This document shows positions 1,990 through 17,783 of a DNA stretch of 64,000 nt, in pieces. Origin of the DNA: Deltaproteobacteria bacterium (GTDB lineage Bacteria > Desulfobacterota > Desulfobulbia > Desulfobulbales > SURF-16); assembly GCA_016219175.1 (NCBI GenBank), contig JACRCD010000020.1, forward strand, positions 1-64,000. Reading direction: 5' to 3'. The notes below the pieces were generated by a model that was not told where the DNA came from, made no database searches, and saw only the letters and a list, made by a program, of their open reading frames with translations. The translations under genes were made by a program, and so were the position numbers. Each line of letters begins with the position of its first letter. Position 1 is the first letter of the stretch.

Positions 1990-3936
1990 ATGTATTCATC
2001 AGAAAAAACCCCTGAGGCGCAGAACAGTTTTTCATTTTTCGGACTGTGCGGCTGTTCGTCTGAAAGTTTATTGGGCAGATTCCTGCAGAGATGTCTTGAT
2101 ACGAGCATTGCCGGGAAACTGATAGGAATGCTGGTTGTTTCCCTGGCCGGCTTTGCTGTTCTGATCATTTTAAATACCGTGTCATTGCAGAAGATAGCTG
2201 GAAGCGACCATGTGATCAGGGATATCGCCATACCCAGGTATAAAATCACCCAGTACATTTTGCGGAGCATTAACGGTTTTAAAATTTCCCTTCTCCATGT
2301 CCTCGATTCCCCGCAGATAAAGGACAATGATCTCAATGTGGCGGCCAACAGGCAGCGGCTGGCCGATATGGGTAGGATGATCCGGGCGCTGCGGGACGGC
2401 GGAACCGTTCAGGATGTGGCCAAGGTGGCCGGCCGGACTCTTGATGTTATCACCGTGGCTCCGGCGGTTGATCCCCGCGTGAAAGACCTTATTGCCGATA
2501 TCTCCAGGGAATATCAGCTGGTTGATGAGACCTATGAAAGTCTGATCACTTCCCTGGTCGGGAAAGGGACACCGCAGGAGAAAAATGAACGTCTTGATGA
2601 TCTCTTGTCCAGCCTTGATGAGATGTATGAGCTGGTCATCGTCATGACGGCCGAAATAAACAAACAGCAGGGCGAACAATTTAAGCAGCTGGAAAACATC
2701 ATCGGCAACTCCATGTCCCGTTCCATCTGGATCGGCGTGGCCATTGCCGCGGTCCTGACCGTGGCTACCCTGCTCTATATCCTGGTGATAGTTGTCCCTC
2801 TGCGCAGCATCCTGGAAAAGATCAGATTTATCGCCAAGGGAGAAGGCGAGCGGGCGCAGCACATTGATGTGCGCAGCAACGACGAGGTGGGGCAGCTTGC
2901 CCATCAGCTCAATACCATGGTGGATAATATCTTCAGCCTGAACTCCTTCAAGGCGATTATCGAAGAGGAGGAGTCCACCACCGAGGTCAATCAGCGTTTG
3001 GCTGCATTATTGAACGAACGCTATCACCTGGCCAGCATTTTTATTTATGAATTGACCGGCAACAAAAATAAGATGTCAGTGGCCTTTGCCTCTGATCTTG
3101 GCGAGGTGTGCAGTCCCCAGATCCTGGAGGATTCGAATTTCTGCCGGGCAAAGCGCACAGGTCACCCTATTTCCTCACTTGAATTTCCTGATATCTGCAA
3201 GCAGTTTCCCCACAAGGGCAGGATGGAGCATCACTGTATCCCGATGATTGCCAACGGCAGGGTGGTGGGCGTTGTCCAGTTTCTCTGCCCCATGGAAAGC
3301 GACCCTGAAGAACGTTCTAGGTTTGAAAAGACGGTGAAGAGGGCCTCCCGCTACATCAAGGAAGCGACCCCGGTCATTGAGGCGAAACGTTTCGCCTCGG
3401 CCCTGCATGAGACCACCATGCGCGATCCGATGACCGATCTCTACAACAGGCGTTTTCTCGAATCCTATACCGACACCCTGGTTGCCAGCACCTTGCGCCG
3501 GAAAACAAAGGTCGGCATTCTCATGTGCGATATGGATTTTTTCAAGGAGGTCAATGACACCTATGGCCATGAGACCGGAGATGTGGTGCTGATCAAAACG
3601 GCTGAAGTGCTTAAAAATTGTGTCAGGGCATCGGATATGGTCATCCGCTATGGCGGCGAGGAGTTTATCGTGCTGCTCATTGATGTAAAAAACAAGGAGG
3701 ATGTTCTGGAGCTGGCCGAAAGAATCCGTAAGACCATGGAAGCGACCGTGATCAATGTGCCGGACGGCACCCTGAAAAAGACCCTGAGTATCGGCGCCAG
3801 TGAATTCCCGGGAGATACCAACGGCTTCTGGGAGGCAATCAAATATGCCGATGTGGCGCTTTACCGGGCCAAGGAAGAGGGCAGAAACAGAGTGGTCAGC
3901 TTCACTCCGGAAATGTGGAAGGAGGATAAATACTAA
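1990..3936 (+). CDS. Membrane diguanylate cyclase (HAMP-GAF-like-GGDEF)
   Basis: The 648-residue protein has a cytoplasmic N-terminus, TM1 at about 44-62, a roughly 180-residue periplasmic sensor region, TM2 at about 247-272, a HAMP linker, a GAF-like region (about 330-460) and a C-terminal GGDEF domain. The active-site motif is GGEEF at 555-559. An RASD at about 546-549, five residues upstream, matches the RxxD inhibitory I-site. It should make cyclic di-GMP with product inhibition and periplasmic control of activity; the signal is unknown. The gene is tail-to-tail with the next kinase gene and overlaps its stop by 4 bp. Upstream lies the 1904-1943 repeat. The ribosome-binding site is weak. 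Confidence 0.9.
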
Positions 3937-5846
3937 AGAGGCAGAATGAAGGAAAAGGTGCTCCCCTGGCCTGTCCCCGCACTTTCCGCCCATATTCTGC
4001 CGTGGTGCAGCTCAACCAGCCGTCTGGTCAATGACAGTCCCAGTCCGGTCCCCTGGTATTTCCTGCTGGCCGAGCTTTCCACCTGCTCAAACGGGATGAA
4101 AATCCGCTTCAGATCCTTTGCGGCAATGCCGATGCCCGTGTCGCTAACGGAAATTTTCACCAGATTGTCGTCAGGCCCCAGATGTTCCCCATCCTCATCC
4201 GCCCAGTGATGCAGCCATTCCGCTCTGTCTGTCCTCGTCGCCTTTATGGCGATATGCCCGCCGGGCTGGGTGAATTTGAGGGCATTGGCCAGCAGGTTGA
4301 AGAGAATTTGCTTGACCTTGCGCTCATCCGCCCGGATTGTGCGCGGCACTGTTTTTTCTATATCAAGGGCCAGGGTGATGTCTGTCTTCTGCGCTTTGCC
4401 CTTGATCATGAGGAAGCTGTTGGCGAGCATGTTGGCAAGGTCAAAGTCCTCCAGGTGCAGTTCCAGTTTGCCTGCCTCCACCTTGGAAAGATCCAGAATG
4501 TCATTGATGAGGGAAAGCAGATGGCGGCTTGATTGCAGGACGTTGGCCAGATATTCCTCCTGAATGTCATTGATGTCGCCGAAATGTTTGTCAAGCACCA
4601 CCTCGGTAAAGCCGATGATGGCGTTCAGCGGGGTGCGCAGTTCATGGCTCATGTTGGCCAGAAATTCGCTTTTGGCGATATTGGCCACCTCGGCCTCCTT
4701 TCTGGCCCTGCTCAACTGATTATATGCCTCTTCCAGGGTGTTCATCATGTTGTTGAAGTCAATGGCCATATTCTCCACTTCATCAATGGCTTTTTTTTCG
4801 CCCCGGGGCATCGGCAGCCTGATGCTCAGATTGCCCTCCTTCTCCGTTACCTGATGCAGCGCGGTAATCAGCTGGTTGATCTTGTTAAAAACCCGGAGTT
4901 TCAACAGGAGAAAAAGGGCGACGGAGACGCTGACGGAGGCAAAGAAGGGAATGAGACTGGCGCCGATCAGCCTTCTTTTCTGTTGGATGTAGCTTTGCTG
5001 GTTGACCGCCACGGCAAGATAGCCTACCCTGACGTTCTGCTGGGTAACGAGTTCCTTGGTTTTACTGGCATAGGATACGGTATCAAGCGTGAAGATATCC
5101 TTGCTGGGAAAGCTGACGGAGTTGCCGGGAAAGCTGGTCAGTACCGTTTGCCGGTCTTTGTTGAACATGACGATTTCCGCTCCGGCAATTTCCTTCATAT
5201 GCCCGGCCAGCTCCTGGTTGCCGTTTATCAGCTTGACCATGATGATGTGGCCATAGGTGTCGCCTGAGTCGTGCAGGAGATGAACGACTGCTTGGATGCA
5301 GAGAATTCTGTCCATGCCGTGTTCTATCTTGTCACCCATGTGCTGCAGAGTGAGAATTTTCGAGGGAATCTCGGCCAGACCTACCTGCTGCCCATGGGTT
5401 TTCATGAAAATTTCATAGATTTCCGGCGCCTCGATATTGGCGCCAAGTCTGTTGCATGTCAGGAGATTGTCTTCGCCGTCAAAGAGAAAGATCAGGTCAA
5501 TGTTCTGTTTCGCGGCAATGGTCTGCAGCATGACGGTTATCGGGTTAATCTTGTCATAGTCCAGAAAATCAACAAACTTGCGATTCTGCTCCTTGATAAT
5601 TCCGGAAACCAGGCTGATTTTGTCAAGTTCATAATTTAAAATTGACTCGGCAATAACCATTTTCGCGTGTAATTGCTGGCCGAGTTGCAGATTGACCTTT
5701 CTGGTCTCCTGGATGGAAGAGTAGATGGCATTGCCGATGATCATGGCAATGAGCAGGATGAAGAGCAGAATAATCCTGCGAAAAATAGTGCGGTGAGGAC
5801 CTTTTATCAGCAATTTCGGGTCGTTATGAGGCGGGCTGGGGCGCAT
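3933..5846 (-). CDS. Membrane sensor histidine kinase
   Basis: The 637-residue protein has TM1 at about 24-42, a periplasmic region of about 240 residues (Cache-type sensor likely), TM2 at about 293-315, a HAMP-like linker and a coiled coil. HisKA follows with [15 protein letters not shown] (phospho-acceptor His401), then HATPase_c with N-box ([13 protein letters not shown]), G1 (VSDTGIGIA) and G2 (GTGLGLSLT). It has no receiver domain, so phosphate must go to another protein; the nearest receiver-only protein in the same direction is at 7582-7959. It is the last gene of a leftward cluster that includes the two selenocysteine-type rhodaneses upstream, 62 bp away. Confidence 0.9.
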
Positions 5847-5907: not shown

Positions 5908-6750
5908 TTAATCGCAGGACAGTTCTCGGTGCAGACTGTCCTGCCCCAGAATCAATGGCAGTCCTTCCGTTTGCCAGCGCGCGGTTCCCCCCTTGAGAAT
6001 ACCGATCACATCATAGCCTTTCAAGGCGAGAAATTTTGCGGCGATGGTTGACTCCTTCATAATCCAGTCCGTCACCAGGATCCTGCGGTTTTTCGGAATG
6101 TGCCGATAGTTTTCCTCGAGAAAAACCAGGGGGCAGTGCACCGCCCCTTTGATATAATCGCCGGCCAGGATGGAGTTGTCCATGGCAAAAACCAGATCCG
6201 GGGTGTTCAAGGTCTGCCTGTCCAGCCCCCTGACATCAAGCAGGAAGATGTCGTCATTTTTATCCAGGAGTTTTTTGAATTCCAGGGGGGGGATCTTGGC
6301 GGCCTTGGTTTGCTGGCATTCTTCTTCAACGGCCATGGGGTAGTTGAAATAGCGCCACTCCGGCATGCCGCCCCGGAAGTAGTGCACGTTGTCGTAACCT
6401 CTGGCCACCGCAATCCTTGCGGCATGCTTGCCGTACGCTCACCTCTCGCTCAGGCAGTGAAAGACGAGGGGGGTATTCCTGTCCTGCGGCAGGGCATTGG
6501 GGTCCCGCATTTTAACAATGGGGATATTGATTGAGCCGCTGATGTGCTGGCAGTTAAATTCAATTTCACTGAGGACGTTGACGACAACCACCCTCTGGCC
6601 GCTGTCGAGCATCTGTTTCAGTTCAAAGGCGGTAATCTCCTGGTAGCCATCCATGGTTTTCTCCCCGGCGGACACGGGCCAGGGGAGGGCCAGCAGGCTC
6701 ATCAGCAACAGGCCGAGGCAGACCCGGTATGAAAATGCCCTGCTTTTCAT
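5908..6750 (-). CDS. Periplasmic double-rhodanese protein with in-frame TGA (predicted selenoprotein, copy A)
   Basis: Reading through a TGA at 6441-6439 gives a 280-residue protein: signal peptide (about 1-30, ending VSAG), rhodanese domain 1 (about 35-145) and degenerate rhodanese domain 2 (about 150-265). The TGA is codon 104, in the loop HC-LSER-U-AYG, i.e. the second position of a CxxxxC-type rhodanese active site. After it the same frame continues with strong rhodanese sequence ([19 protein letters not shown]). Domain 2 has Asp (about D228) where the catalytic Cys would be. The paralogue just upstream has a TGA at the same place. A hairpin with a GGA loop lies 22 nt after the TGA. Best reading is selenocysteine insertion; a plain nonsense mutation would split it into 6439-6750 and an orphan 5908-6408. 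Start ATG 6750 lies 13 bp after the paralogue's stop. Confidence 0.8.
6406..6424 (-). promoter_or_regulatory. bSECIS-like hairpin, copy A
   Basis: On the coding (minus) strand CCGCAA-GGA-UUGCGG forms a 6-bp perfect stem, extendable by G-U and U-G pairs, with a 3-nt GGA loop. The first loop G is 22 nt beyond the in-frame TGA, within the 16-37 nt range given for bacterial SECIS elements, and loop guanines are the SelB-binding signature. The sequence also encodes conserved residues, so structure alone is not proof. Confidence 0.6.
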
Positions 6751-6763
6751 TTCTGTTGACCTG

Positions 6764-7582
6764 TCAATCCGCGCAGAGTGCCGGGTCGTGAGTGGGAGAA
6801 TCCTCAACATGAGTAAACGGCAGCTTTTCATCACGCCAGCGGACGATGCCTCCTTTCAGCACGCAGAGAACATTATAACCTTTACTGATTAAAAACTTGG
6901 CGGCCAGGATGGATTTTTTGTTGGTCCAGTCGCTCACCACGATTTTGGCGTCCTTGGGGATGTTGTGGTGCCAGTCGGCCAGATAGTCCATGGGGCAGAT
7001 TATTGAGCCCTTGATGAAGATGTTTTCCCGGCCGCAGTCAATGGGACGGACATCAAGAACATAGATACTGCTGTCCTGCTCCAGCAGCGCATAGAGTTTC
7101 TTTGGACTGATCTTCATGACCTTGATGGCTGCATACCCTTCATTTGCGGTCAGGGGATAGTTGAATGACCGCCACTCGGGGATCCCTCCCTTGAAGCAGT
7201 AAACATTTGTGTATCCCATCTCGACCGCAATCCTTGCAGCCCTTGCACTGTATGGTCAGTCATGCCCCATGCAGTATGTGATGAGAGGAACGGTCCTGTC
7301 AGCCGGCAACAGGGTTGTGGAGCGGAAGCCGAGGACCGGGATGTTGATTGAGCCGGTGATGTGCAGGCCGTCATACTCGATCTTGCTTAAGGTGTCGATC
7401 ACCACTGTCCTGGGATCGTTTTCCATCATGTTTTTCACTTCCGGAGCGGTTATATATTGCAGCGTCTGGCCATAAGCGTTGGCAGAAAAAAACAGGGGCA
7501 GCAGATAGGCGACTAAGCGGGGAAGAAGCCATGGGCAAAATGCGGCAGGGGGTTTTCTGGAAAAGGCATGTGGGCGATGCAT
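6764..7582 (-). CDS. Periplasmic double-rhodanese protein with in-frame TGA (predicted selenoprotein, copy B)
   Basis: Reading through a TGA at 7258-7256 yields 272 residues: a hydrophobic signal segment (about 16-38, ending SANAYGQ), rhodanese domain 1 with YC-MGHD-U-PYS (Cys104, TGA codon 109), and a degenerate rhodanese domain 2 with Asp (about D218) at the catalytic Cys position. Copy A is similar throughout (RIAV..GY.NV...GG.PEWR.FNYP after the TGA), so the downstream part is coding in this frame. The start ATG at 7582 overlaps the stop of the upstream receiver gene (TGATG), which favours it over the longer upstream frame and implies translational coupling. Function is inferred: sulfane-sulfur or redox chemistry in the periplasm using a Cys/Sec pair. 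Accurate expression would need selA, selB, selC and selD, which are not in this window. Confidence 0.8.
7223..7241 (-). promoter_or_regulatory. bSECIS-like hairpin, copy B
   Basis: The coding strand has CUGCAA-GGA-UUGCGG with the same GGA loop and the same 22-nt spacing from the TGA as copy A. One stem position is U-G here and C-G in copy A, so pairing is kept despite the base change. Outer pairs C-G, G-U and G-C can extend the stem. Confidence 0.6.
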
Positions 7583-7959
7583 CAGCGGCTCTCTTTCAGG
7601 AAAAAAAGGACATCGTTGACAAAGCTGCGCGTGTCGATGGGTTTGCTGATATAGCCCGCGCATCCGGCTTCCAGGGCCTTTTTTTCATCGCTTTCCATGG
7701 CAAAGGAGGTAACGGCGATGACAGGAATGCCGCCGATGAGCGGATCTTTTTTGATAATGGTGGTGGCGGTTAAGCCGTCAAGCCTCGGAAGCTGTATATC
7801 CATGAGGATGATGTCCGGCAGCTCATTTCTGGCCAGGGCGATCCCCTGCTCGGCATCGCTTGCCTCAAGAACGGTGAAATCGGCAAGCTCAAGCAGGGTA
7901 CGGACAAGCTTCAAGTTGAGTTCGTTGTCCTCTATGACCAGAATCTTTTTCCCTGCCAT
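7582..7959 (-). CDS. Single-domain response regulator (DivK/CheY type)
   Basis: The 125-residue protein is a receiver domain alone: acidic pair ED at 10-11, phospho-acceptor Asp54 in ILMDIQLP, Thr/Ser switch in VTSFAM and the conserved Lys in ISKPID. No output domain is attached, so it acts by binding a partner or relaying phosphate. It overlaps the start of rhodanese copy B by one base (TGATG) and follows the hybrid kinase by about 115 bp, so it is probably a shuttle for the neighbouring kinases. Confidence 0.9.
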   Translation of the reverse strand: MAGKKILVIEDNELNLKLVRTLLELADFTVLEASDAEQGIALARNELPDIILMDIQLPRLDGLTATTIIKKDPLIGGIPVIAVTSFAMESDEKKALEAGCAGYISKPIDTRSFVNDVLFFLKESR

Positions 7960-8073: not shown

Positions 8074-10101
8074 TCATCCAGCCTGCGGTTCGCCAGGTGG
8101 CGGGCCGCTCTCCTTTTCCCCCGTAAGCGCCTCCCTGACCGCCACGGCAAAATCCCGGGTCAACACCGGCTTCATCAGATATCTGCAGATCCCGTATTGC
8201 CCGGCGTCTTCTTCACTCAGTAATTCACTAAACCCGGTGCAGAGGATTACGGGCAGATCAGGCCGCAACCCTTTGGCTTCCCTGGCCAGGTTCAGGCCGT
8301 TTATTTTTGGCATGGTCATGTCGGTAACAATGAGATCAATATCGTCAGGTGTTGTGCGGATGACCTTTAAGGCCTCTTCGCAGCTGGTGAAAGCTGTCAC
8401 CTGATAGCCCAGTTCTTCAAGAATGCGTTGTTCGAGCTTGACGATGGTTTCTTCGTCATCCACGACAAGAATCCGCTCTCCGTTCCCCCGGGGCAGCGTC
8501 TCTTCCGATGGGGGCCGGGGTGATTGTCTTCCCCCCCTGATCGCCGGCAGGTAGACATGGAAGGCCGTTCCCCTGCCTGGCTCGCTGTAGGCGGAAACGT
8601 GGCCGCCGCAGGAGGTGACGATGCCATGCACCACGGCCAGCCCCATGCCGGTCCCCTCGCCCTTGGGCTTGGTGGTGAAGTATGGTTCGAAGATCTTGTC
8701 CCTGGTCGCCGGGTCCATGCCGCAGCCCGTATCGCTCACCTCAAGCAGCACATAGGGGCCGGGGGCAAGATGCAGCACGGTGGCCCTGGCGTCCGCCTCC
8801 GTGAACGTCACCCCGGAGAGCCTGATGCCCAGCAGGCCGGAGCTGTTTTGTCTCATGGCCTGGTAAGCGTTGGTGCACAGGTTCATGAGGATCTGGTGGA
8901 TCTGGGTGGGGTCGGCAAGGATGGAGCCGCCGTCCTCGGCGATGTTCTGGCGGATTTCAATGGAACTCGGCAGGGAGGCGCGGAGCAGTTTGATGACCTC
9001 TTTGACAAGGTGATGGATCTGCAAAGGTTTGCGTTCCTGGCTGCTCTGCCGGCTGAAGGTGAGAATCTGTTTGACCAGTTCCTTGGCCCGCTGGGAGGCC
9101 TGGAGTATCTGGGCAAGGTCGTGGGCCACGGGATGGCTGACCCCGATTTTGGCCAGGGAAAGCTCGGTGTAGCCGATGATGGGGGTCAGGATGTTGTTGA
9201 AATCATGGGCAATGCCGCCGGCCAGGGTGCCGATCGCCTCCATTTTCTGGGCCTGGCGAAGCTGTTCCTGCAACAGACTCTGCTCGGTTATGTCCTTGGC
9301 GATGTGGACAAAGCTGTGCAGCCCGCCGTGCTCATTAAGAACAGGGAAGGAGGACACGCTAAAGGTCTTTTTGATCGTGTCATGGCGGATTTCCACACAG
9401 TGGGGCTTTAAGTCCGATTTTGTCAGGAGCTCGGGGCAACCTGGGCACGGTTGCTGTTCGCCCCGGAATATCTCATGACATTTTCGGCCGAGAAGTGCAT
9501 GGGGTTCAAGGCCGAAAAGCAGGCCGGCGGCCCGGTTGGCCCGGATGATGGTCATTTCCTGGTCGTGAATGGTGATCACCTCCTCGATGGAATCAAAGGT
9601 CCGCTCCCATTCCTCCTCGGCCTTGATGCGTTCGGCGATTTCCTTCTCCAGTCGTTGCGATTTGTTAAGTAAGGCATAGCGGGAGGCCTGCAATTCATCG
9701 AGGGTTCTGTTCAAGGCGATGAATTTGCTGGCGGATTGCGCCGGGGGCGAGAGTTGCAGGATGATGAGCCCGTCCCGGGGCGCAGAAGAAAGATGCAGGC
9801 GGAAACCGCGGCAGGGGGTTTTGCTCCGCGCGCCGGCCGCGGTGCGCCAGGTGATGGCGCCCACCACCGGACTGGTGGTGCGGCGGCAGTTTTGCAGGTA
9901 ATGCGCGAGCGCCTCCGGGTCTTCGGCGGTTAGAGCGGCGAGGTCTGTCCCGGTAAGCTCTCCGGGGGGTGAGCCGAGCATTTGCCGGGCCGCGGAGTTT
10001 ACGGCAAGTATGCAACCGCCGCTGTCGAGCAGAAAAAAGGCGTCCCCCTGCGCTTCGGTGAAGGCGTAAAAAAATTCCCTGAGAGTGGGCTGGTCAGGCA
10101 A
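8074..10101 (-). CDS. PAS-PAS hybrid histidine kinase with C-terminal receiver
   Basis: The product is about 675 residues: PAS1 (about 5-110), a coiled coil, PAS2 (about 165-280) containing a small Cys motif (QPCPGCPEL), HisKA with GGIAHDFNNILTPIIGYTEL (His299), HATPase_c (GMDPATRDKIFEPYFTT, GEGTGMGLAVV) and a receiver with Asp594 (IVTDMTMPK). No transmembrane segment is seen, so it is cytoplasmic. The frame stays open to 10287, but that extension overlaps the upstream gene and is Arg/His/Pro-rich shadow sequence. A TTG at 10101 preceded by GAGGAG six bases away is the better start, 11 bp after the upstream stop. Confidence 0.85.
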   Translation of the reverse strand: MPDQPTLREFFYAFTEAQGDAFFLLDSGGCILAVNSAARQMLGSPPGELTGTDLAALTAEDPEALAHYLQNCRRTTSPVVGAITWRTAAGARSKTPCRGFRLHLSSAPRDGLIILQLSPPAQSASKFIALNRTLDELQASRYALLNKSQRLEKEIAERIKAEEEWERTFDSIEEVITIHDQEMTIIRANRAAGLLFGLEPHALLGRKCHEIFRGEQQPCPGCPELLTKSDLKPHCVEIRHDTIKKTFSVSSFPVLNEHGGLHSFVHIAKDITEQSLLQEQLRQAQKMEAIGTLAGGIAHDFNNILTPIIGYTELSLAKIGVSHPVAHDLAQILQASQRAKELVKQILTFSRQSSQERKPLQIHHLVKEVIKLLRASLPSSIEIRQNIAEDGGSILADPTQIHQILMNLCTNAYQAMRQNSSGLLGIRLSGVTFTEADARATVLHLAPGPYVLLEVSDTGCGMDPATRDKIFEPYFTTKPKGEGTGMGLAVVHGIVTSCGGHVSAYSEPGRGTAFHVYLPAIRGGRQSPRPPSEETLPRGNGERILVVDDEETIVKLEQRILEELGYQVTAFTSCEEALKVIRTTPDDIDLIVTDMTMPKINGLNLAREAKGLRPDLPVILCTGFSELLSEEDAGQYGICRYLMKPVLTRDFAVAVREALTGEKESGPPPGEPQAG

Positions 10102-10112
10102 GGTGTGCTCCT

Positions 10113-10637
10113 CTATGCCCCGAAATATTCCCTGCCCGGCACCAGGGCGGATTGGCGGGTGGCTTTCAGGAAGACGGTAACCAGGCAGCGGGGATCGCCC
10201 TGGGCGATGGTTTCTTCCAGGGTTACCTTGGCGTAGCCGAGGTTCATGGCGGTGATGACGCCGAAAACATTGGAGGTCATCATGCACATGGAAGGCCTGT
10301 CGAGCATCTTGTCGACAAAGGGGCAGGAGCTGCTGCCCAGCACGATTTTTTCATCATTTACTTCAACAATGTGGAAATTCCCCTGTATCCTTTGCTTCAG
10401 ATCGACAAGCACTTCCGCCACCTGGGCGCGGGAAAGGGTGTCCGCATTCAGGGCGCCCCGGTAAATGTCGTTGATCCACAGGCCGATTTTTTGCCCAACC
10501 AGGCTGATATAACCCGCCGCTTCCTCGTAGCCCACCACCTCTTCCAGGATGGTGGCCAGCTCACGGATGAGGGTGCGCAGAAACAGGTCGCGTTCGAGGG
10601 GTATGTCGAGGTTCCGCATGGCGGAATGCGCTGTCAT
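10113..10637 (-). CDS. Methanogen output domain (MetOD1)-type regulatory protein
   Basis: The 174-residue protein has an N-terminal helical region and a C-terminal part with SSSCPF...MCMMTSNVFG, NLGYAKVTLEETIAQGDPRC and LVTVFL. These features match the methanogen output domain 1 / 4-vinyl-reductase-like sensor family often attached to kinases. No catalytic site is assigned. It is the first gene of the leftward cluster and is followed 11 bp later by the hybrid kinase, so it may modulate that kinase. Family recognition is from memory of the conserved cysteine and glycine pattern. Confidence 0.7.
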   Translation of the reverse strand: MTAHSAMRNLDIPLERDLFLRTLIRELATILEEVVGYEEAAGYISLVGQKIGLWINDIYRGALNADTLSRAQVAEVLVDLKQRIQGNFHIVEVNDEKIVLGSSSCPFVDKMLDRPSMCMMTSNVFGVITAMNLGYAKVTLEETIAQGDPRCLVTVFLKATRQSALVPGREYFGA

Positions 10638-11017: not shown

Positions 11018-12883
11018 TCACGATTTTTGGCGGAACCAGGGTTCCAGTTTCCTGGCCAGAAGCAGGGTCTTTTCCGTTACCTGACCGATATCCTGAATGG
11101 AGCTGCCCTGGCCCGCATAACGCCATGCCTCATGGAGAGCCAGCAAGTCCTTGAGTTCCGCACGGGTCGCCTCATCAACACCAAGGACAAGGAGGCCGGG
11201 TTCCACGTCGAGGAAGGTGAGGGCGCCAACACTTTTATGCAGTCTGGTTTCCAGGTATTCTTTCAAGGAGGCGGCAAGGTCGTCAGGGGAAAGTGACGGA
11301 GAGGCCAGCCGTCGTTCAAGTCTGCCCAGGGCGACTCTGGCCTGTCTGGAAACGGAATCATTTGTTCTTCTCTTCCGCGCCAGGGAGAGAAGGGCGGTCA
11401 GCAGAAAAAGGGCTGGCGGCCCGGCAATAAGCAGAATCCTCCATCCTGTCCCGGAAGAGAGCTGTTCCCGCTGGTCGATAAGGACATCCTCCCCTTCATA
11501 ATTACAGGCCAGCCCTTTTTCCGCTGCCTTGAGTTCCTGTTGGCTAACCCCCGCGTCCCTGCCTTCGGCATCCGTGGCCGTGACGATGCGCGTCGCCCGG
11601 ACGGTGAGGGGAATGGGGGCGGTTTGGGCGGTCTGGTAACTGTTTTGCTCCGGGTCGAAATAGCTCATGACAATGGTTGGGATTTCCGTGATCGCGGTAT
11701 CCTTCACCCTGATGGTTTGGGTGAAGATTTTCCGGTTTTCCCCCAGCTCCCCCGGGGCGATATCCTCAGGGACCTTAAAGGCCGCGGGCGGCAGAAATCC
11801 GCTGAGATCGGGCAGCTTGGCGCCCTGGGCAAACGGGCCGCTAATTGTCAGGGTCAGGGTGATGGGGTCGCCCAGGTTCATCTCCTGGGGCGAGGCGCTG
11901 GCCGCTATGGAATAATGACCCACCAGGCCGGAGAAATCAGCGGGTTTGTCTTTTTCCGGCAGGGCGGCGACAGTCAGCGCTGGTTCATTGGAGGGGACTA
12001 TCTGGGTACGGTAGACGGCTTCCCGTCCGCTGCTGAAAAAATCGTCAAACCCGCCGAAGGGAGAACGCCGCGCCGGGGAGCGAAGCGAAGAGAGGGTTTG
12101 GCAGGCAACGGTGGCCTGGGGCAGGGTGAAGGCGCCCGCCTCTTTGGCCAATAGCAGGAAGTGAAAGGTGACGGTGAGAAATTCCCTGCCCTGTATTTCC
12201 CCCTTGCCTTTCACGCCAAGGACCGACTCTTTGCCGAGCGGGATCTTGATCTCCTCCTGGGATGAACCTCCTGATTGCGCGGGAAGCGGCGCCAGAGCAA
12301 AACGGGGATCGTCCAGAATGGGCAGTTGAAATTCAAAACCATTGACATCCTTGCCCACAAACCAGGTAACCGTCATGGTGACGGGTTCGCCCACGTAGCA
12401 GTTGTTTGAGGAGAGAAAAAGCCGCAGTTTCAGGTCCTCCGTTTCCTCGGGCTGCCGGGCGATAAGGGTCACGGGTTTGGTCTGGTGGCTTTTGCCGTCA
12501 ACCTTCACGTCAACGGGGGGTATGGTCAGGGCGCCGGCTCGCTTGGGTGTCAGGGTATAGCTGAAGATATAGCCGAGCTGGGTGACCCGTTGCCACTTGC
12601 CGTTCATGTTGGTAACGGAGGTGCTGCTGGTGCTCTGTCCGCCCCGCTCTTGGACGTGAAAGTCGGCAAGCTGCGACAGATCGGGCGCTGCCGCGCTGTT
12701 TGCCCCGTTGATCCGCAGCTGCATGGCCAGGGATTCTCCCACCGTAACCTCCTGCCGGTCCAGCAGGAGGTCAACCGAGATGTCGGCTGCGGCGGAGAGC
12801 GGCGGGATGAAAAAAAGCCGCATGGTGCAAAAAATGAAAAGCAGGAAACAGGGCAACCTGTTTATCTTTTTGAAATTGTTCAT
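11018..12883 (-). CDS. batD: BatD oxygen-tolerance protein
   Basis: The 621-residue protein has a signal peptide (about 1-33), repeated beta-sandwich regions typical of BatD (DISVDLLLDRQEVTVGESLAM at the start; GHYSIAASASPQEMNLGDPITLTL later), one membrane helix at about residue 480 (WRILLIAGPPALFLLTALL) and a cytoplasmic helical tail. BatD is the large periplasmic partner of the vWA proteins BatA and BatB. The gene starts 6 bp after batBC and is the last of the operon. The first methionine at 12883 fits a basic n-region followed by a hydrophobic stretch. Confidence 0.88.
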   Translation of the reverse strand: MNNFKKINRLPCFLLFIFCTMRLFFIPPLSAAADISVDLLLDRQEVTVGESLAMQLRINGANSAAAPDLSQLADFHVQERGGQSTSSTSVTNMNGKWQRVTQLGYIFSYTLTPKRAGALTIPPVDVKVDGKSHQTKPVTLIARQPEETEDLKLRLFLSSNNCYVGEPVTMTVTWFVGKDVNGFEFQLPILDDPRFALAPLPAQSGGSSQEEIKIPLGKESVLGVKGKGEIQGREFLTVTFHFLLLAKEAGAFTLPQATVACQTLSSLRSPARRSPFGGFDDFFSSGREAVYRTQIVPSNEPALTVAALPEKDKPADFSGLVGHYSIAASASPQEMNLGDPITLTLTISGPFAQGAKLPDLSGFLPPAAFKVPEDIAPGELGENRKIFTQTIRVKDTAITEIPTIVMSYFDPEQNSYQTAQTAPIPLTVRATRIVTATDAEGRDAGVSQQELKAAEKGLACNYEGEDVLIDQREQLSSGTGWRILLIAGPPALFLLTALLSLARKRRTNDSVSRQARVALGRLERRLASPSLSPDDLAASLKEYLETRLHKSVGALTFLDVEPGLLVLGVDEATRAELKDLLALHEAWRYAGQGSSIQDIGQVTEKTLLLARKLEPWFRQKS

Positions 12884-12889
12884 ATGTTC

Positions 12890-14803
12890 TTACCAGTCTT
12901 TTTCCACGGGATCGGACTGCAAACGCAACCGTTGCATGCGTTTGGCCTGCAGTTTCTTCTCGGCCTCAAGGATGGCCTCAACAGTTTGTTCCGCTATCTC
13001 CTTTTCTTGGCCGGTCCGCGCTTGTTCCGCGCTCTGATTTGCCTCCCCTTGCTGGTTCCTTGCGCTGTCGCTCTGCCGACCCTGCTCGGGCTGGGAGGAT
13101 GAGCCCTGCTCGTTTTGCTCCCTTTGTTGGTTCTGCTCCTGCTTCTGGTCGTCGCCGGGCTGTCCGGCCTCTTCCCGCTGCTCGGGCTGCTCCCCTCCGT
13201 CGCGCTTGTTCGGCGGATTCTCCGACCGTTGCCGCTCCTCCTGTTGCCCCTGGTTTTGCTCCGTGTCCTGCTTCTGCCTTTGGTCCTGCTGGTCCTGCTC
13301 CTGCGGGTTTTTCCGCTGCCCGGCAAGCTGCTGTTCAATCTCTTTTATGTTACGGCGGCATATTTCAAGATTGCGGCCTGCCCCGGCCAGGGTTGCATCA
13401 TGCCGCAGGGCTTGCTGGTAGAAGCCCGCGCTTTCCTTGAGATCCGCCAGTTTCTCCTTGAGATCCTTTTTCTCTGCGGCTAGGCGGAAACGGGCGTTGC
13501 CTTGGTTGAACCAGCTTCTGGCCAGAAAATTTTTGTCCTTGGCATTGGCCGCGGCCTGGGTAAAAACCTTCTCCGCCTCGGCAAATTTTCCCTGGCGATA
13601 GAGGCTGTCTCCTTTGTTGAATGGCGCGGCGGGATCATCGGCTTGGCTAGCCAGCGCCTGGTCGTAGAATTTGTCCGCCTCGCTGAAGCTGCCGCTGCTG
13701 TAAGCCTGGTTGCCGGAGTTGATCAAGGAGCGCGGGGAGGCGGCCAGGCAATAATCCGGATGGAGCAGGGGCAGTAAACACAGGGCGCCAAGGACAAGCA
13801 GGCGGCCGAGCAGTGCTTCCGCGGCGAGCAAAACAAGGGCCGCGGCCACAAAGATCTGGAATTTCTCCTCATAGCGCTTGATGGTTTTTGATTCAAGCTC
13901 TTTCCGGTCAGCCGAGGCCACCAGGTCAAGATAGACTTCACCCAGGTCAACCGTGCCCGTGGCCACGGGCAGATAGCGTCCTCCCGGAGTGGCGTCCGCC
14001 ATCTGGCGCAGGGTTGTTCCGTCAAGCCTGGACCAGACCTCCCGGCCGTCGTATTTTAGAAAACCTCTCTCCCCCGCTTCGCTGGTGACGGGGATGCGCT
14101 CTCCCTCCCCCTCATCGCCGAGGCCGATGATCAACAGCCTGATGCCCGCCTCGCCCGCTTTCTGGGCGGCCTGGACCGGGAAGCTCTCATGATCCTCGCC
14201 GTCCGTGATCAGGATAATATCTTTAAACTGTTTATCCTGGTCATCAAAAACCTGTTGCAGGGTGGTGCGCAAGGCGTCGCCGAGCAGGGTGCCGCCGCGG
14301 CCGATGCTGTCGCTGTCGATGGCATCAAGCAGCATAAGAAAAAAACCGTAATCCTGGGTAAGGGGGCATTTGACCGCGGTGACGCCGGCAAAGGCCACCA
14401 GGGCAATGCGGTCTCCCCGGAGTTTCTCCACGCAGTCCCTGATGGCGATCTTGGCCCGTTCGAGACGGTTTGGCAGGAGATCCGTGGCCAGCATGCTTTT
14501 TGACACGTCCAGCATGAAGACCAGATCGCGGCCGGAGCGTTGCACGGTCGTCTCCTTGAGATTCCAGGCCGGGCGGGCCAGGGCGATAACCAGGCACGCT
14601 GTCGCCGCGCAGAAAAGAATAAAGCGGCTGCCCCGCCTGGCGGAACCCGCCCCGTGCTGGCATTTGGCGGCCAGGGCGGGCTCCATGAAGGCAGCCAGCG
14701 CTTTTTTGCGTTTGGTTGCGGCATAAAAAAAGAGCAAGGCCAGCAGCGGCAACAGCCACAGCAGCAGAAACATCTTTATGTCGGTGAAATGAATACCGTT
14801 CAT
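12890..14803 (-). CDS. batB: BatB-BatC fusion: vWA membrane protein with TPR tail
   Basis: The 637-residue protein has two N-terminal membrane segments (about 10-28 and 60-77), a vWA domain with MIDAS DVSKS (Asp99), a further membrane segment at about 315-345, and then three or so TPR units (INSGNQAYSSGSFSEADKFYDQAL; APFNKGDSLYRQGKFAEAEKVF) followed by a Q/E/N-rich low-complexity tail (about 490-600). The vWA half is BatB and the TPR half is BatC, which are separate genes in many genomes. The start overlaps the batA stop by 4 bp (ATGA). Confidence 0.88.
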   Translation of the reverse strand: MNGIHFTDIKMFLLLWLLPLLALLFFYAATKRKKALAAFMEPALAAKCQHGAGSARRGSRFILFCAATACLVIALARPAWNLKETTVQRSGRDLVFMLDVSKSMLATDLLPNRLERAKIAIRDCVEKLRGDRIALVAFAGVTAVKCPLTQDYGFFLMLLDAIDSDSIGRGGTLLGDALRTTLQQVFDDQDKQFKDIILITDGEDHESFPVQAAQKAGEAGIRLLIIGLGDEGEGERIPVTSEAGERGFLKYDGREVWSRLDGTTLRQMADATPGGRYLPVATGTVDLGEVYLDLVASADRKELESKTIKRYEEKFQIFVAAALVLLAAEALLGRLLVLGALCLLPLLHPDYCLAASPRSLINSGNQAYSSGSFSEADKFYDQALASQADDPAAPFNKGDSLYRQGKFAEAEKVFTQAAANAKDKNFLARSWFNQGNARFRLAAEKKDLKEKLADLKESAGFYQQALRHDATLAGAGRNLEICRRNIKEIEQQLAGQRKNPQEQDQQDQRQKQDTEQNQGQQEERQRSENPPNKRDGGEQPEQREEAGQPGDDQKQEQNQQREQNEQGSSSQPEQGRQSDSARNQQGEANQSAEQARTGQEKEIAEQTVEAILEAEKKLQAKRMQRLRLQSDPVEKDW

Positions 14804-15879
14804 GGGATCTTACGCAGCAGGGTCGTGCCCAGGAGCATTTCCGCCATGAGCAATGCCAGGGCCGTCATGACAAAGAGCGGAAAATGCTCAGCGTAATCAA
14901 TATGGCGGACACTTTCGATCTCGCTTTTCTCCAGCCGGTCTATCTCCTCATAGATGCTGCGCAAACTGTCGGCGTCAGAGGCCATGCGAAAGATGCCGCC
15001 CGAGGTCTGGGCGATTTCCTGCAGGGTTTTTTTGTCCACCCCGCGGCCGGCCTGGGTCAGGAGGGCGAAAAAGCCGCGCGCGCCTTCCGCTTCGGTATCC
15101 TCGCCAATGCCTATGGTGTAGATTTTGATCCCCCACTGCGCGGCAAGCTGGGCGGCCTCGAGCGGGGTGAGGTCGCCGGCGTTATGAACCCCGTCGGTGA
15201 GGACAATGATGATCTTGCTTTTGATTTCATACTGTTTGGCCGTGCCGTCGCCGTTGGCTTCGTCGTCGTCTCTGTTTTCCCGGGCCACCGCCTCGTCCGC
15301 CTTTTGCAGTCTGGCCGCGGCCAGGGCGATACCGTCACCGATGCTGGTTCCGTCTTCATCGCGGTTGCTGACCAGCTGGATGTTTGCCATGAAGCCGCTC
15401 ACCGCCTCGTGGGCCAGGGTCAGGGGGCATACTGTTTCCGGGTAGCGGGCAAAACTGACGAGCCCGATGAGGTCGTTGGGGCGGCCGGCAAGCTGGTTGC
15501 CGTTGCCGCTGACAAATTCGGCAAAGACCTTTTTGACAACCTCAAGCCGGTTTGCCCGCAGGTTGCCCATGACCATCTCTTGCCCCATGCTGCTTGAGCG
15601 GTCAATGACCATTTCAATGGCAATGCCGTGACTGATGTCATGGACTTTTTCAATCCCCTGCTGCGGACGGGCAAAGGCCGTGACCAGCAGGATCAGGGCA
15701 AGGATGCGCAGGATGAGGGGCAATGAGAGGAGGTGCTGCCGCCAGGAGATGCCGGCCGGGCGCAACAGCTCGATTGCTGAAAATTTGAGGGTCCTGGGGT
15801 GTCCTTTGCGCAGCCGGAAAAAAAGAAGAACCGGGATGAGCAGCAGGGCGAGAAAGGCGAAAGGCGAGGCAAATCTCAT
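14800..15879 (-). CDS. batA: BatA vWA membrane protein
   Basis: The 359-residue protein has the BatA plan: N-terminal hydrophobic segments (about 5-20 and 53-70), a vWA domain with MIDAS DRSSS (Asp93) and a C-terminal membrane helix (about 335-352). A charged insert lies at about 190-205. Its gene overlaps its neighbours by 4 bp on both sides, so it is translated from the moxR operon. BatA and BatB are thought to form a membrane complex with BatC-E; the biochemical function is unresolved. Confidence 0.88.
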   Translation of the reverse strand: MRFASPFAFLALLLIPVLLFFRLRKGHPRTLKFSAIELLRPAGISWRQHLLSLPLILRILALILLVTAFARPQQGIEKVHDISHGIAIEMVIDRSSSMGQEMVMGNLRANRLEVVKKVFAEFVSGNGNQLAGRPNDLIGLVSFARYPETVCPLTLAHEAVSGFMANIQLVSNRDEDGTSIGDGIALAAARLQKADEAVARENRDDDEANGDGTAKQYEIKSKIIIVLTDGVHNAGDLTPLEAAQLAAQWGIKIYTIGIGEDTEAEGARGFFALLTQAGRGVDKKTLQEIAQTSGGIFRMASDADSLRSIYEEIDRLEKSEIESVRHIDYAEHFPLFVMTALALLMAEMLLGTTLLRKIP

Positions 15880-16898
15880 CTGTTCCCCTCCCTTGGCCCG
15901 GCTGCCCGCGGCTCCTGGTTTTTCTCACCCGTGACCCGGATAAAGTGGCGGCACAGCTCGATACTCTCGGAAACCTCCGTTTCGGCCGGCATGACCCGGG
16001 CGAATTTTATCAAATCACTGCGGGAGAGAAAGGTGGTGAGCAGCTCCTTGTCTGTCGGGGCAAAAGCGGGGGTGGTGCGCAGCGCGTCGAGAAATTCCTC
16101 GGTGGTCTGCTCCGGGGCCTTGAGCCCGAAACCGGTTTCGATGTAATAGCGGAGAATAAGAGAGAGTTCCCCAAAGAAATAAGCATGGTCCCTGATTTCT
16201 TTGTTGTTTTGCAGCAGTCTGTCGATTTTCTCCAGGGCCGCGAGGTGGGGGGCGGGCGGCGGCGTGGCGCTTGCTTTTTTCCGCCTGCGGGCCTGGATTG
16301 CATAGCAGATAAGCGTGAGCAGGACAAGGATTGCCCCGCTGGCGATAAGCAGCTCACGAACGGGACGTGGCTGGGAAACCGGCGGGAAGATATCGGCAAT
16401 CTCCGGCTCTTTTTCGTCCGCGGCCAGAAAGGAGGTGACGGGGATGGTCCGGGCCGGGATGGTGATGAGCGGCGGGGTGTTTTCTTCGTCGTTCCGCCGG
16501 GCCGTGACCCGCATTGCAGGGATGACGTACTGGCCGGGCAGAAAGGGGGCAAGGGTCCAGGTCCGGCTCTGTCTGACGGTAGACCCGCTTAATTCTTTCG
16601 CTGTCGTATTCGTGGTCTCCAGGGTGAAATCCCCTAGGTGTCCGGTAAATTCCGGGAAGGTGACAACAAAATCCTCGGGCGCGGTCGCCGTCAGGGTGAG
16701 TTCCAGACTTTGCGCCACGGAGATCTGCTGGGCGGAGAGGGTGCGCTGCACGGTAAGCACTCCGCTGTGCATTTCCTCCGTAACGGTTGCAGGCCCCGGC
16801 GTATCGCTGCCCGCCTCCGGCGGTTGGCAGCCGTAAAGCAGCAGGAGGCAGAAGAACCAGAGGAAAGACCAGGCCGGAGAGGGTGTTTTTCGTACCAT
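15876..16898 (-). CDS. BatD-like / DUF4381-type lipoprotein
   Basis: The 340-residue protein begins with a lipoprotein signal (LLLLYGC, Cys about 24). A periplasmic beta-rich domain follows (about 45-175: QQISVAQSLELTLTATAP), a single membrane helix (about 182-200: LLIASGAILVLLTLICYAI) and a cytoplasmic helical tail (about 215-330). This is the architecture of the small BatD-like/DUF4381 proteins found between DUF58 and batA genes. It overlaps batA by 4 bp and follows the DUF58 gene by 6 bp. Role is inferred from context only. Confidence 0.7.
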   Translation of the reverse strand: MVRKTPSPAWSFLWFFCLLLLYGCQPPEAGSDTPGPATVTEEMHSGVLTVQRTLSAQQISVAQSLELTLTATAPEDFVVTFPEFTGHLGDFTLETTNTTAKELSGSTVRQSRTWTLAPFLPGQYVIPAMRVTARRNDEENTPPLITIPARTIPVTSFLAADEKEPEIADIFPPVSQPRPVRELLIASGAILVLLTLICYAIQARRRKKASATPPPAPHLAALEKIDRLLQNNKEIRDHAYFFGELSLILRYYIETGFGLKAPEQTTEEFLDALRTTPAFAPTDKELLTTFLSRSDLIKFARVMPAETEVSESIELCRHFIRVTGEKNQEPRAAGPREGNR

Positions 16899-16904
16899 GT
16901 CCTG

Positions 16905-17783
16905 CTACCGTCGCCGCCGTTCCCGCATCCGAAAAAAACGGACCAGGTCAAGGACATAATCGTGGGTGGTCTGCAAGGGGATATGGTCAACGCCCATGGC
17001 GGCAAACTGACCGGCCAGTTCCCGCGCCCTTTTGGCCGAGGAGGCGGCAAAGGCCCGGCGCACTAGCGGGCTGCCGCTGTCAATCATGATCCGCTGCCTG
17101 GTTTCCGCATCTTCCAGGGCAATGAGGCCCGCATCGGGCAGTTGCTGTTCCCTGGGGTCGGTGATGGAAACGGCGATGAGGTCATGACGCCGGGCAATAA
17201 TGCGCATGGGCTTTACGAAATCCCGGTCAATGAAGTCCGAGACAAGAAAGGCGACCGAACGCTTATGGCTGATGCGGCCCAGGAAATTCAGGCTGGCCGC
17301 GATATCGGTTCCGCCCCGCTCGGGTGAAAAATTAAGTATTTCCCGGATGAGCCGCAAGACATGGGTGGCGCCTTTCTTGGGAGGGATAAACATCTCCACC
17401 GTGTCGGTAAAGGCGATAAGACCAACCTTGTCATTGTTTTTGATGGCTGAAAAGGCCAGCAGGGCGCACAGCTCGGCCGCCACTTCATTTTTCAGGTGGT
17501 GCACGGTGCCGAAGATGCCGGAGGCGGAAAGATCAACCAGCAGGAAGACCGTGAGTTCCCGTTCCTCCACGTACTGTTTCACATAGGGATGCCCGGTGCG
17601 GGCCGTGACATTCCAGTCAATGGCGCGGATGTCGTCGCCCGGCTGATATTCCCGGACCTCATCAAAGGCCATGCCCCGGCCCTTGAAGACGCTTTCATAC
17701 TCACCGGCCAGGATATCGTTGACCGCTTTGCTGGTGTAAATACGGATGGCGCGGATTTTCCGGGCCAGTTCACTGCTGATCAT
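16905..17783 (-). CDS. DUF58 protein (vWA-like, MoxR partner)
   Basis: The 292-residue soluble protein carries the DUF58 signature near the N-terminus (GRGMAFDEVREYQPGDDIRA, ending IDWNVTARTG) and a vWA-like core starting VFLLVDLSAS. DUF58 proteins almost always sit beside MoxR ATPases, and this start overlaps the moxR stop by 4 bp. It probably acts as the substrate or adaptor of MoxR in assembling the Bat membrane complex; that role is inferred from family context. Confidence 0.88.
   Translation of the reverse strand: MISSELARKIRAIRIYTSKAVNDILAGEYESVFKGRGMAFDEVREYQPGDDIRAIDWNVTARTGHPYVKQYVEERELTVFLLVDLSASGIFGTVHHLKNEVAAELCALLAFSAIKNNDKVGLIAFTDTVEMFIPPKKGATHVLRLIREILNFSPERGGTDIAASLNFLGRISHKRSVAFLVSDFIDRDFVKPMRIIARRHDLIAVSITDPREQQLPDAGLIALEDAETRQRIMIDSGSPLVRRAFAASSAKRARELAGQFAAMGVDHIPLQTTHDYVLDLVRFFRMRERRRR

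Follow-up and report, generated by a model that had tools for sequence, protein, structure and literature searches.

Tandem genes for predicted periplasmic seleno-rhodanese proteins beside a sensor kinase with a LuxQ-like predicted sensor domain

Organization of the locus

The window, i.e. the whole stretch of 64,000 nucleotides that was analysed, carries on its minus strand two rhodanese genes, RhdB followed by RhdA with 13 nt between them. An earlier note made from the letters alone had read them as tandem rhodaneses whose reading frames each cross a TGA five codons past the presumed catalytic Cys, and its coordinates prove exact. The sensor kinase gene that follows, outside the interval 5908-7582 covered by that note, is the other subject of this report. 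The features of the locus are as follows.

8074..9981, minus strand: second histidine kinase (PAS, HisKA, HATPase_c, receiver), upstream of RhdB and RhdA and in the same direction
7582..7959, minus strand: receiver-only response regulator, its stop overlapping the RhdB start (TGATG)
6764..7582, minus strand: RhdB, predicted periplasmic two-domain seleno-rhodanese, 272 aa (ATG at 7582, TGA stop at 6764-6766)
7256..7258, minus strand: in-frame TGA of RhdB, predicted Sec109 codon (codon 109, YCMGHD-U-PYS)
7224..7240, minus strand: SECIS-like hairpin of RhdB, +18 to +34 after the TGA, loop starting with G
5908..6750, minus strand: RhdA, predicted periplasmic two-domain seleno-rhodanese, 280 aa (ATG at 6750, TAA stop at 5908-5910)
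6439..6441, minus strand: in-frame TGA of RhdA, predicted Sec104 codon (codon 104, HCLSER-U-AYG)
6407..6423, minus strand: SECIS-like hairpin of RhdA, +18 to +34 after the TGA
3933..5846, minus strand: sensor histidine kinase (two predicted TM segments, HisKA, HATPase_c), starting 61 nt past the RhdA stop
4977..5711, minus strand: periplasmic sensor domain of that kinase, predicted LuxQ-like double-PAS (dCache-type), conserved at 18/18 linked loci
1990..3936, plus strand: convergent HAMP-GGDEF diguanylate cyclase, conserved at 7 of the loci

The HAMP-GGDEF gene, a possible output gene, shares the last 4 bases of the kinase gene. Further upstream, the gene at 10113-10637, beyond the second kinase, matches MetOD1 (methanogen output domain 1), and a same-strand run of genes at 11018-17783, of vWA/TPR type by sequence, is found beside the cluster at other loci too.

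Both proteins match the Pfam rhodanese family PF00581 (E 3e-22 and 1e-24) over two stretches each, and so comprise two rhodanese domains. The TGA lies five codons past the catalytic Cys codon in both genes, giving Cys104/Sec109 in domain 1 of RhdB and Cys99/Sec104 in that of RhdA, and the rhodanese sequence runs on past it to an ordinary stop. Across 35 aligned relatives Cys104 and Cys/Sec109 (RhdB numbering) are invariant, as is Asp218, which occupies the place of the catalytic Cys in domain 2; the alignment shows that domain 2 lacks its catalytic Cys and that domain 1 holds what is predicted to be a Cys-x4-Sec pair. The hydrophobic N-termini of RhdA and RhdB resemble signal peptides, from which we infer secretion. 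A structure model of RhdB (pLDDT 87) has the rhodanese fold and matches Sud (1qxn) with a Z of 13.6 in a fold search, while a sequence search of the PDB with the rhodaneses returned distant rhodaneses only.

The in-frame TGA codons are predicted to encode selenocysteine

The earlier note predicted selenoproteins and proposed searching the genome for the Sec machinery. In this genome (4.2 Mb, 98% complete) selA is found, selB scores over its cut-off, a tRNA-Sec with anticodon TCA (UCA) scores 68.9 bits, and selD contains an in-frame TGA of its own at the known Sec position (KAAG-U-AAK). The presence of selB is useless for telling Sec-form from Cys-form genomes, since most Cys-form genomes have it too; among 17 related genomes with these rhodaneses it was not detected in 4, all incomplete (72-88%), and is partial in a fifth. 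TGA is an ordinary stop in the window, ending RhdB itself and six of the neighbouring genes checked, which agrees with the note's view that the code is not reassigned. A readthrough of UGA with some other amino acid, by suppression or a general code change, is on these grounds hardly credible: the tRNA-Sec carries the TCA anticodon, TGA ends other genes, a hairpin resembling the bacterial SECIS follows the codon and the homologous residue is Cys.

Relatives were sought in 258 genomes of the class. Genes of the RhdA/RhdB clade occur in 18 of these, and the in-frame TGA is present in every copy that covers the site (26/26), a recurrence that cannot be put down to chance. In a tree of 71 proteins the 26 rows of the RhdA/B clade group together with support 100 and are all Sec, so Sec probably preceded the duplication and both TGAs of the window were most probably inherited from one Sec ancestor. 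The note had argued that independent nonsense mutations at the same codon of two paralogues would be an unlikely coincidence; the pattern indeed recurs throughout the clade, but the two TGAs are not independent events, and a separate origin for each is ruled out by their place in one all-Sec clade. Farther out among the two-domain rhodaneses this codon is TGC or TGT, or else TGA in subfamilies of their own (CKGPGU, CLGRTU and others), and the tree as a whole needs five changes between Sec and Cys, although this is a quick tree in which the starred branches alone force two. The alignment of homologues thus displays the Cys/Sec exchange that the note had expected to be natural at this site. A Cys-form rhodanese of the CKGPKC type is also encoded in the window's own genome (L073, contig C74). 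In a phylum-wide sample of 395 genomes no clear RhdA/B-clade rhodanese or kinase sensor domain was seen outside the class.

Downstream of the TGA, dN between close relatives is several-fold lower than dS, so purifying selection continues beyond the codon, in line with the homologous sequence that the note had traced past each TGA. The same region contains the SECIS-like hairpin, a stem of 7 bp in which +18 to +24 pair with +28 to +34 around a three-base loop. In all 28 Sec genes the first base of the loop is G and five stem pairs are intact, whereas the pairing is not kept consistently among 10 Cys genes. One stem pair exchanges C-G for U-A in 10 of the 27 rows; its two bases are the third letters of Ala codons, so the protein is unaffected. 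AGG is the loop Arg codon in all 26 rows that have Arg there, against 18% of Arg codons nearby. An Rfam scan of the window gave nothing at the gathering score, so the SECIS evidence is drawn from comparison; single-sequence folding is weak (the hairpin's energy ranks at 1-48% among synonymous shuffles), and the strength of the case lies in the comparison of Sec genes. A hairpin in a like position occurs in most of the phylum's other Sec rhodanese subfamilies.

The complete machinery, the TGA in 26/26 clade members, the Cys homologues, the covariation in the hairpin and the purifying selection together make it well supported from sequence that RhdB and RhdA are selenoproteins, with UGA read as Sec through the hairpin just downstream. 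The computational checks proposed by the note and run here all favour Sec, and none of the outcomes that it had named as refuting was seen. The rival view, that each TGA is a sequencing error or a genuine stop and the genes are pseudogenes or encode short domain-1 fragments, would fit the normal use of TGA as a stop in this genome, yet it is strongly disfavoured and very improbable given the same TGA in 26 genes from 18 genomes, the selection and the covarying hairpin downstream, the homologues with Cys at the codon and the complete Sec machinery.

Other Sec rhodaneses in the survey

Several further Sec rhodaneses were encountered. A third in the window's own genome (L074, C91:135409-135957) is about 457 aa long, with an N-terminal CxxCH, several rhodanese domains and an in-frame TGA in CAGFT-U-AMS followed by a strong hairpin. 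Small, single-domain secreted rhodaneses of about 135 aa (L063-L068) have CRGYD-U-GLAP with a downstream hairpin, and the one that was tested scores below every NCBIfam cut-off. Large secreted or lipoprotein-like rhodaneses of about 450-470 aa (L077-L083) have sites of the CGGYT-U-GMS type with a UxxS motif and are possibly the family listed as form 1 (see below). A Sec rhodanese with CKGLPT-U, whose active-site loop is longer by one residue (C-x5-U), lies near a multihaem cytochrome gene (L099/L172, genome G517).

More distant Sec rhodaneses are encoded beside a kinase or chemoreceptor at six loci (L166-L171). At L166, L167, L168 and L171 the Sec two-domain rhodanese adjoins methyl-accepting chemotaxis proteins, and in genomes G570 and G587 it lies between two of them.

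The rhodanese genes are linked to one type of kinase sensor domain

A histidine kinase gene lies downstream of the Sec rhodanese, or of the second of a pair, on the same strand at 18/18 loci, at a distance of -41 to 190 nt from the rhodanese stop, and in tandem loci the receiver-only regulator gene precedes RhdB. With the window's kinase as query the N-terminal half of the kinase is homologous in all 18 (E up to about 1e-42), and most copies have a periplasmic domain of about 250 residues between two predicted membrane segments; a few have fewer or extra segments, partly owing to rule-called start codons or contig ends. The cytoplasmic half varies, consisting of HisKA-HATPase alone, with added receivers or Hpt, or with PAS. 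Within the 258 genomes the sensor domain is found in 19, one copy each, and the rhodanese in 18, all of which have both (Fisher p 9e-27, a value that counts related genomes as independent and hence overstates the association). In the exception, genome G234, the kinase occurs but the rhodanese does not; the sensor is divergent (26% identity) and a different gene lies upstream. For the sister CKGP rhodaneses, both Sec and Cys, a kinase immediately downstream on the same strand was seen at 0 of 20 loci.

No significant match to the sensor domain emerged from the PDB by sequence profile, and the fold search alone was informative. For the sensor domain model (pLDDT 89) the five top-ranking entries are all LuxQ (Z 16.1-17.1, 192-202 residues at 2.7-2.9 Å), followed by DctB, of dCache type, with a Z of 15.0. 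The model therefore predicts a LuxQ-like fold, with the reservation that the fold is a common one and the lead over DctB is about 2 Z units. No cysteine is conserved in the sensor domain across all loci.

Discussion

Gene order, co-occurrence and predicted fold point to a likely signalling role for RhdA and RhdB. LuxQ relies for its sensing on the periplasmic protein LuxP, whose gene is adjacent, and because the sensor domain here is nearest to LuxQ in predicted fold, RhdA/B could provide the periplasmic input of the adjacent kinase. Taken jointly, the data are best explained if the selenoproteins RhdA/B are periplasmic partners of this kinase, which we consider fairly probable. We propose that the seleno-rhodanese acts as a periplasmic sulfane-sulphur or redox co-receptor, or as a ligand processor, for the kinase. 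A broader formulation, in which a selenoprotein is the dedicated periplasmic signal input of a two-component system, its Cys/Sec pair is charged by sulfane sulphur or oxidised, its state is read by the LuxQ-like kinase and Sec rhodaneses further removed may do the same for other kinases and chemoreceptors, seems to us about evenly poised between true and false.

The active-site loop of known rhodaneses is closed by the residue at Cys+5, which is Ser70 in GlpE and Thr252 in the bovine enzyme, so a Sec at this position should be able to attack a persulfide on the Cys. The persulfide chemistry, the RhdA/B-sensor complex and the signal that we infer would then proceed as follows. The domain-1 Cys would accept sulfane sulphur as a persulfide, which the neighbouring selenol would attack to give a Cys-S-Se-Sec bond (a selenylsulfide) with release of sulphide, so that RhdA/B might switch among reduced, persulfidated and selenylsulfide states. 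The LuxQ-like sensor domain would read this redox or persulfide state, or a ligand made or removed by RhdA/B, as LuxP serves LuxQ, and the signal could pass onward to the receiver-only regulator and possibly to a c-di-GMP output. Direct thiol exchange with the sensor domain is disfavoured as a general mode, as this domain has no universally conserved Cys, and the kinase would more likely read a conformation or a small ligand.

RhdA/B might instead be enzymes of periplasmic sulphur metabolism, e.g. in sulfane-sulphur reduction, with the two-component system merely regulating them or their pathway and no direct coupling between the two. A two-component system often controls the genes with which it shares an operon. 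In related Desulfobulbales, periplasmic rhodaneses show high expression (PMC13047784), and a psr operon encodes a secreted multi-rhodanese protein (PMC12142623), both of which would suit such enzymes. A regulated enzyme would, however, be expected to track the output regulator, whereas it is the periplasmic sensor half that is conserved beside the rhodanese while the output half of the kinase is exchanged, and the sister rhodaneses have no such kinase linkage. We consider this alternative unlikely but deserving of serious weight, and retain the partnership of RhdA/B with the kinase as the preferred reading.

Bacterial selenoproteins have mostly been treated as redox enzymes. The tie between a selenoprotein family and one sensor domain, with the kinase output exchanged, would bring selenium chemistry into signal perception; the position of RhdA/B beside the sensor kinase suggests that sulphur or redox signals beyond the inner membrane are detected by means of selenoproteins. 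If true, sulphur-cycling bacteria of the Desulfobulbales type would have a route for sensing polysulfide, thiosulfate or redox there. The tandem genes, strong hairpins and Cys-form relatives make direct Sec/Cys tests easy.

Comparison with known systems

A 2026 review lists five predicted seleno-rhodanese forms: form 1 with UxxS, for which WP_010941598 is the reference, forms 2 and 4 with UxxG, form 3 with CxU (NF041203) and form 5, TsoB, with UxxxxU (NF045694) (PMC13188914). The family that the earlier note thought worth describing is accordingly not new as a kind, yet it falls below the cut-offs of the NCBIfam models. Against rhodanese_LYCAU (NF041203, form 3) the two proteins score 82.7 and 51.9 bits with a cut-off of 115, and their motif is CxxxxU, not CxU; against TsoB, whose membership is defined by a cut-off of 805, a DsbD fusion and UxxxxU, they score about 59 and 56 bits over the rhodanese part only. 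NCBIfam's two seleno-rhodanese models stay below cut-off for six other Sec rhodaneses tested as well. Current NCBIfam models leave several of the phylum's Sec rhodanese subfamilies uncovered, and standard annotation is therefore likely to cut these proteins short. Among open-licence PMC papers we found no seleno-rhodanese linked to a kinase, and we rate the protein class as already known and the kinase partnership and likely role as new.

RhdA/B resemble forms 1-5 in having a rhodanese domain whose predicted Sec lies within or next to the active-site loop, and TsoB in the spacing of the residue pair; compared by motif alone, the UxxS of form 1 fits RhdB (UPYS) and not RhdA (UAYG). They differ from these forms as tandem two-domain proteins that keep the catalytic Cys and place Sec at Cys+5, with a second domain that has lost its Cys and a putative sensor-kinase partner. 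The Cys-form two-domain rhodaneses of the CKGPKC type have the same architecture at ~35% identity, with Cys-x4-Cys for Cys-x4-Sec, but they lack Sec, do not keep the hairpin consistently and are not directly followed by a kinase gene. Sud, the polysulfide-sulphur transferase of Wolinella, is, as RhdB is predicted to be, a rhodanese-fold sulphur carrier, but it is a single domain with Cys only, and we know of no kinase linkage for it. The sensor domain shares about 11-15% sequence identity with LuxQ. In the LuxP-LuxQ system of Vibrio, as here, the gene of a periplasmic protein lies directly upstream of that of the kinase, and the predicted sensor fold is LuxQ-like; LuxP, however, is a periplasmic binding protein of the sugar-binding type, whereas the putative partner here is a rhodanese.
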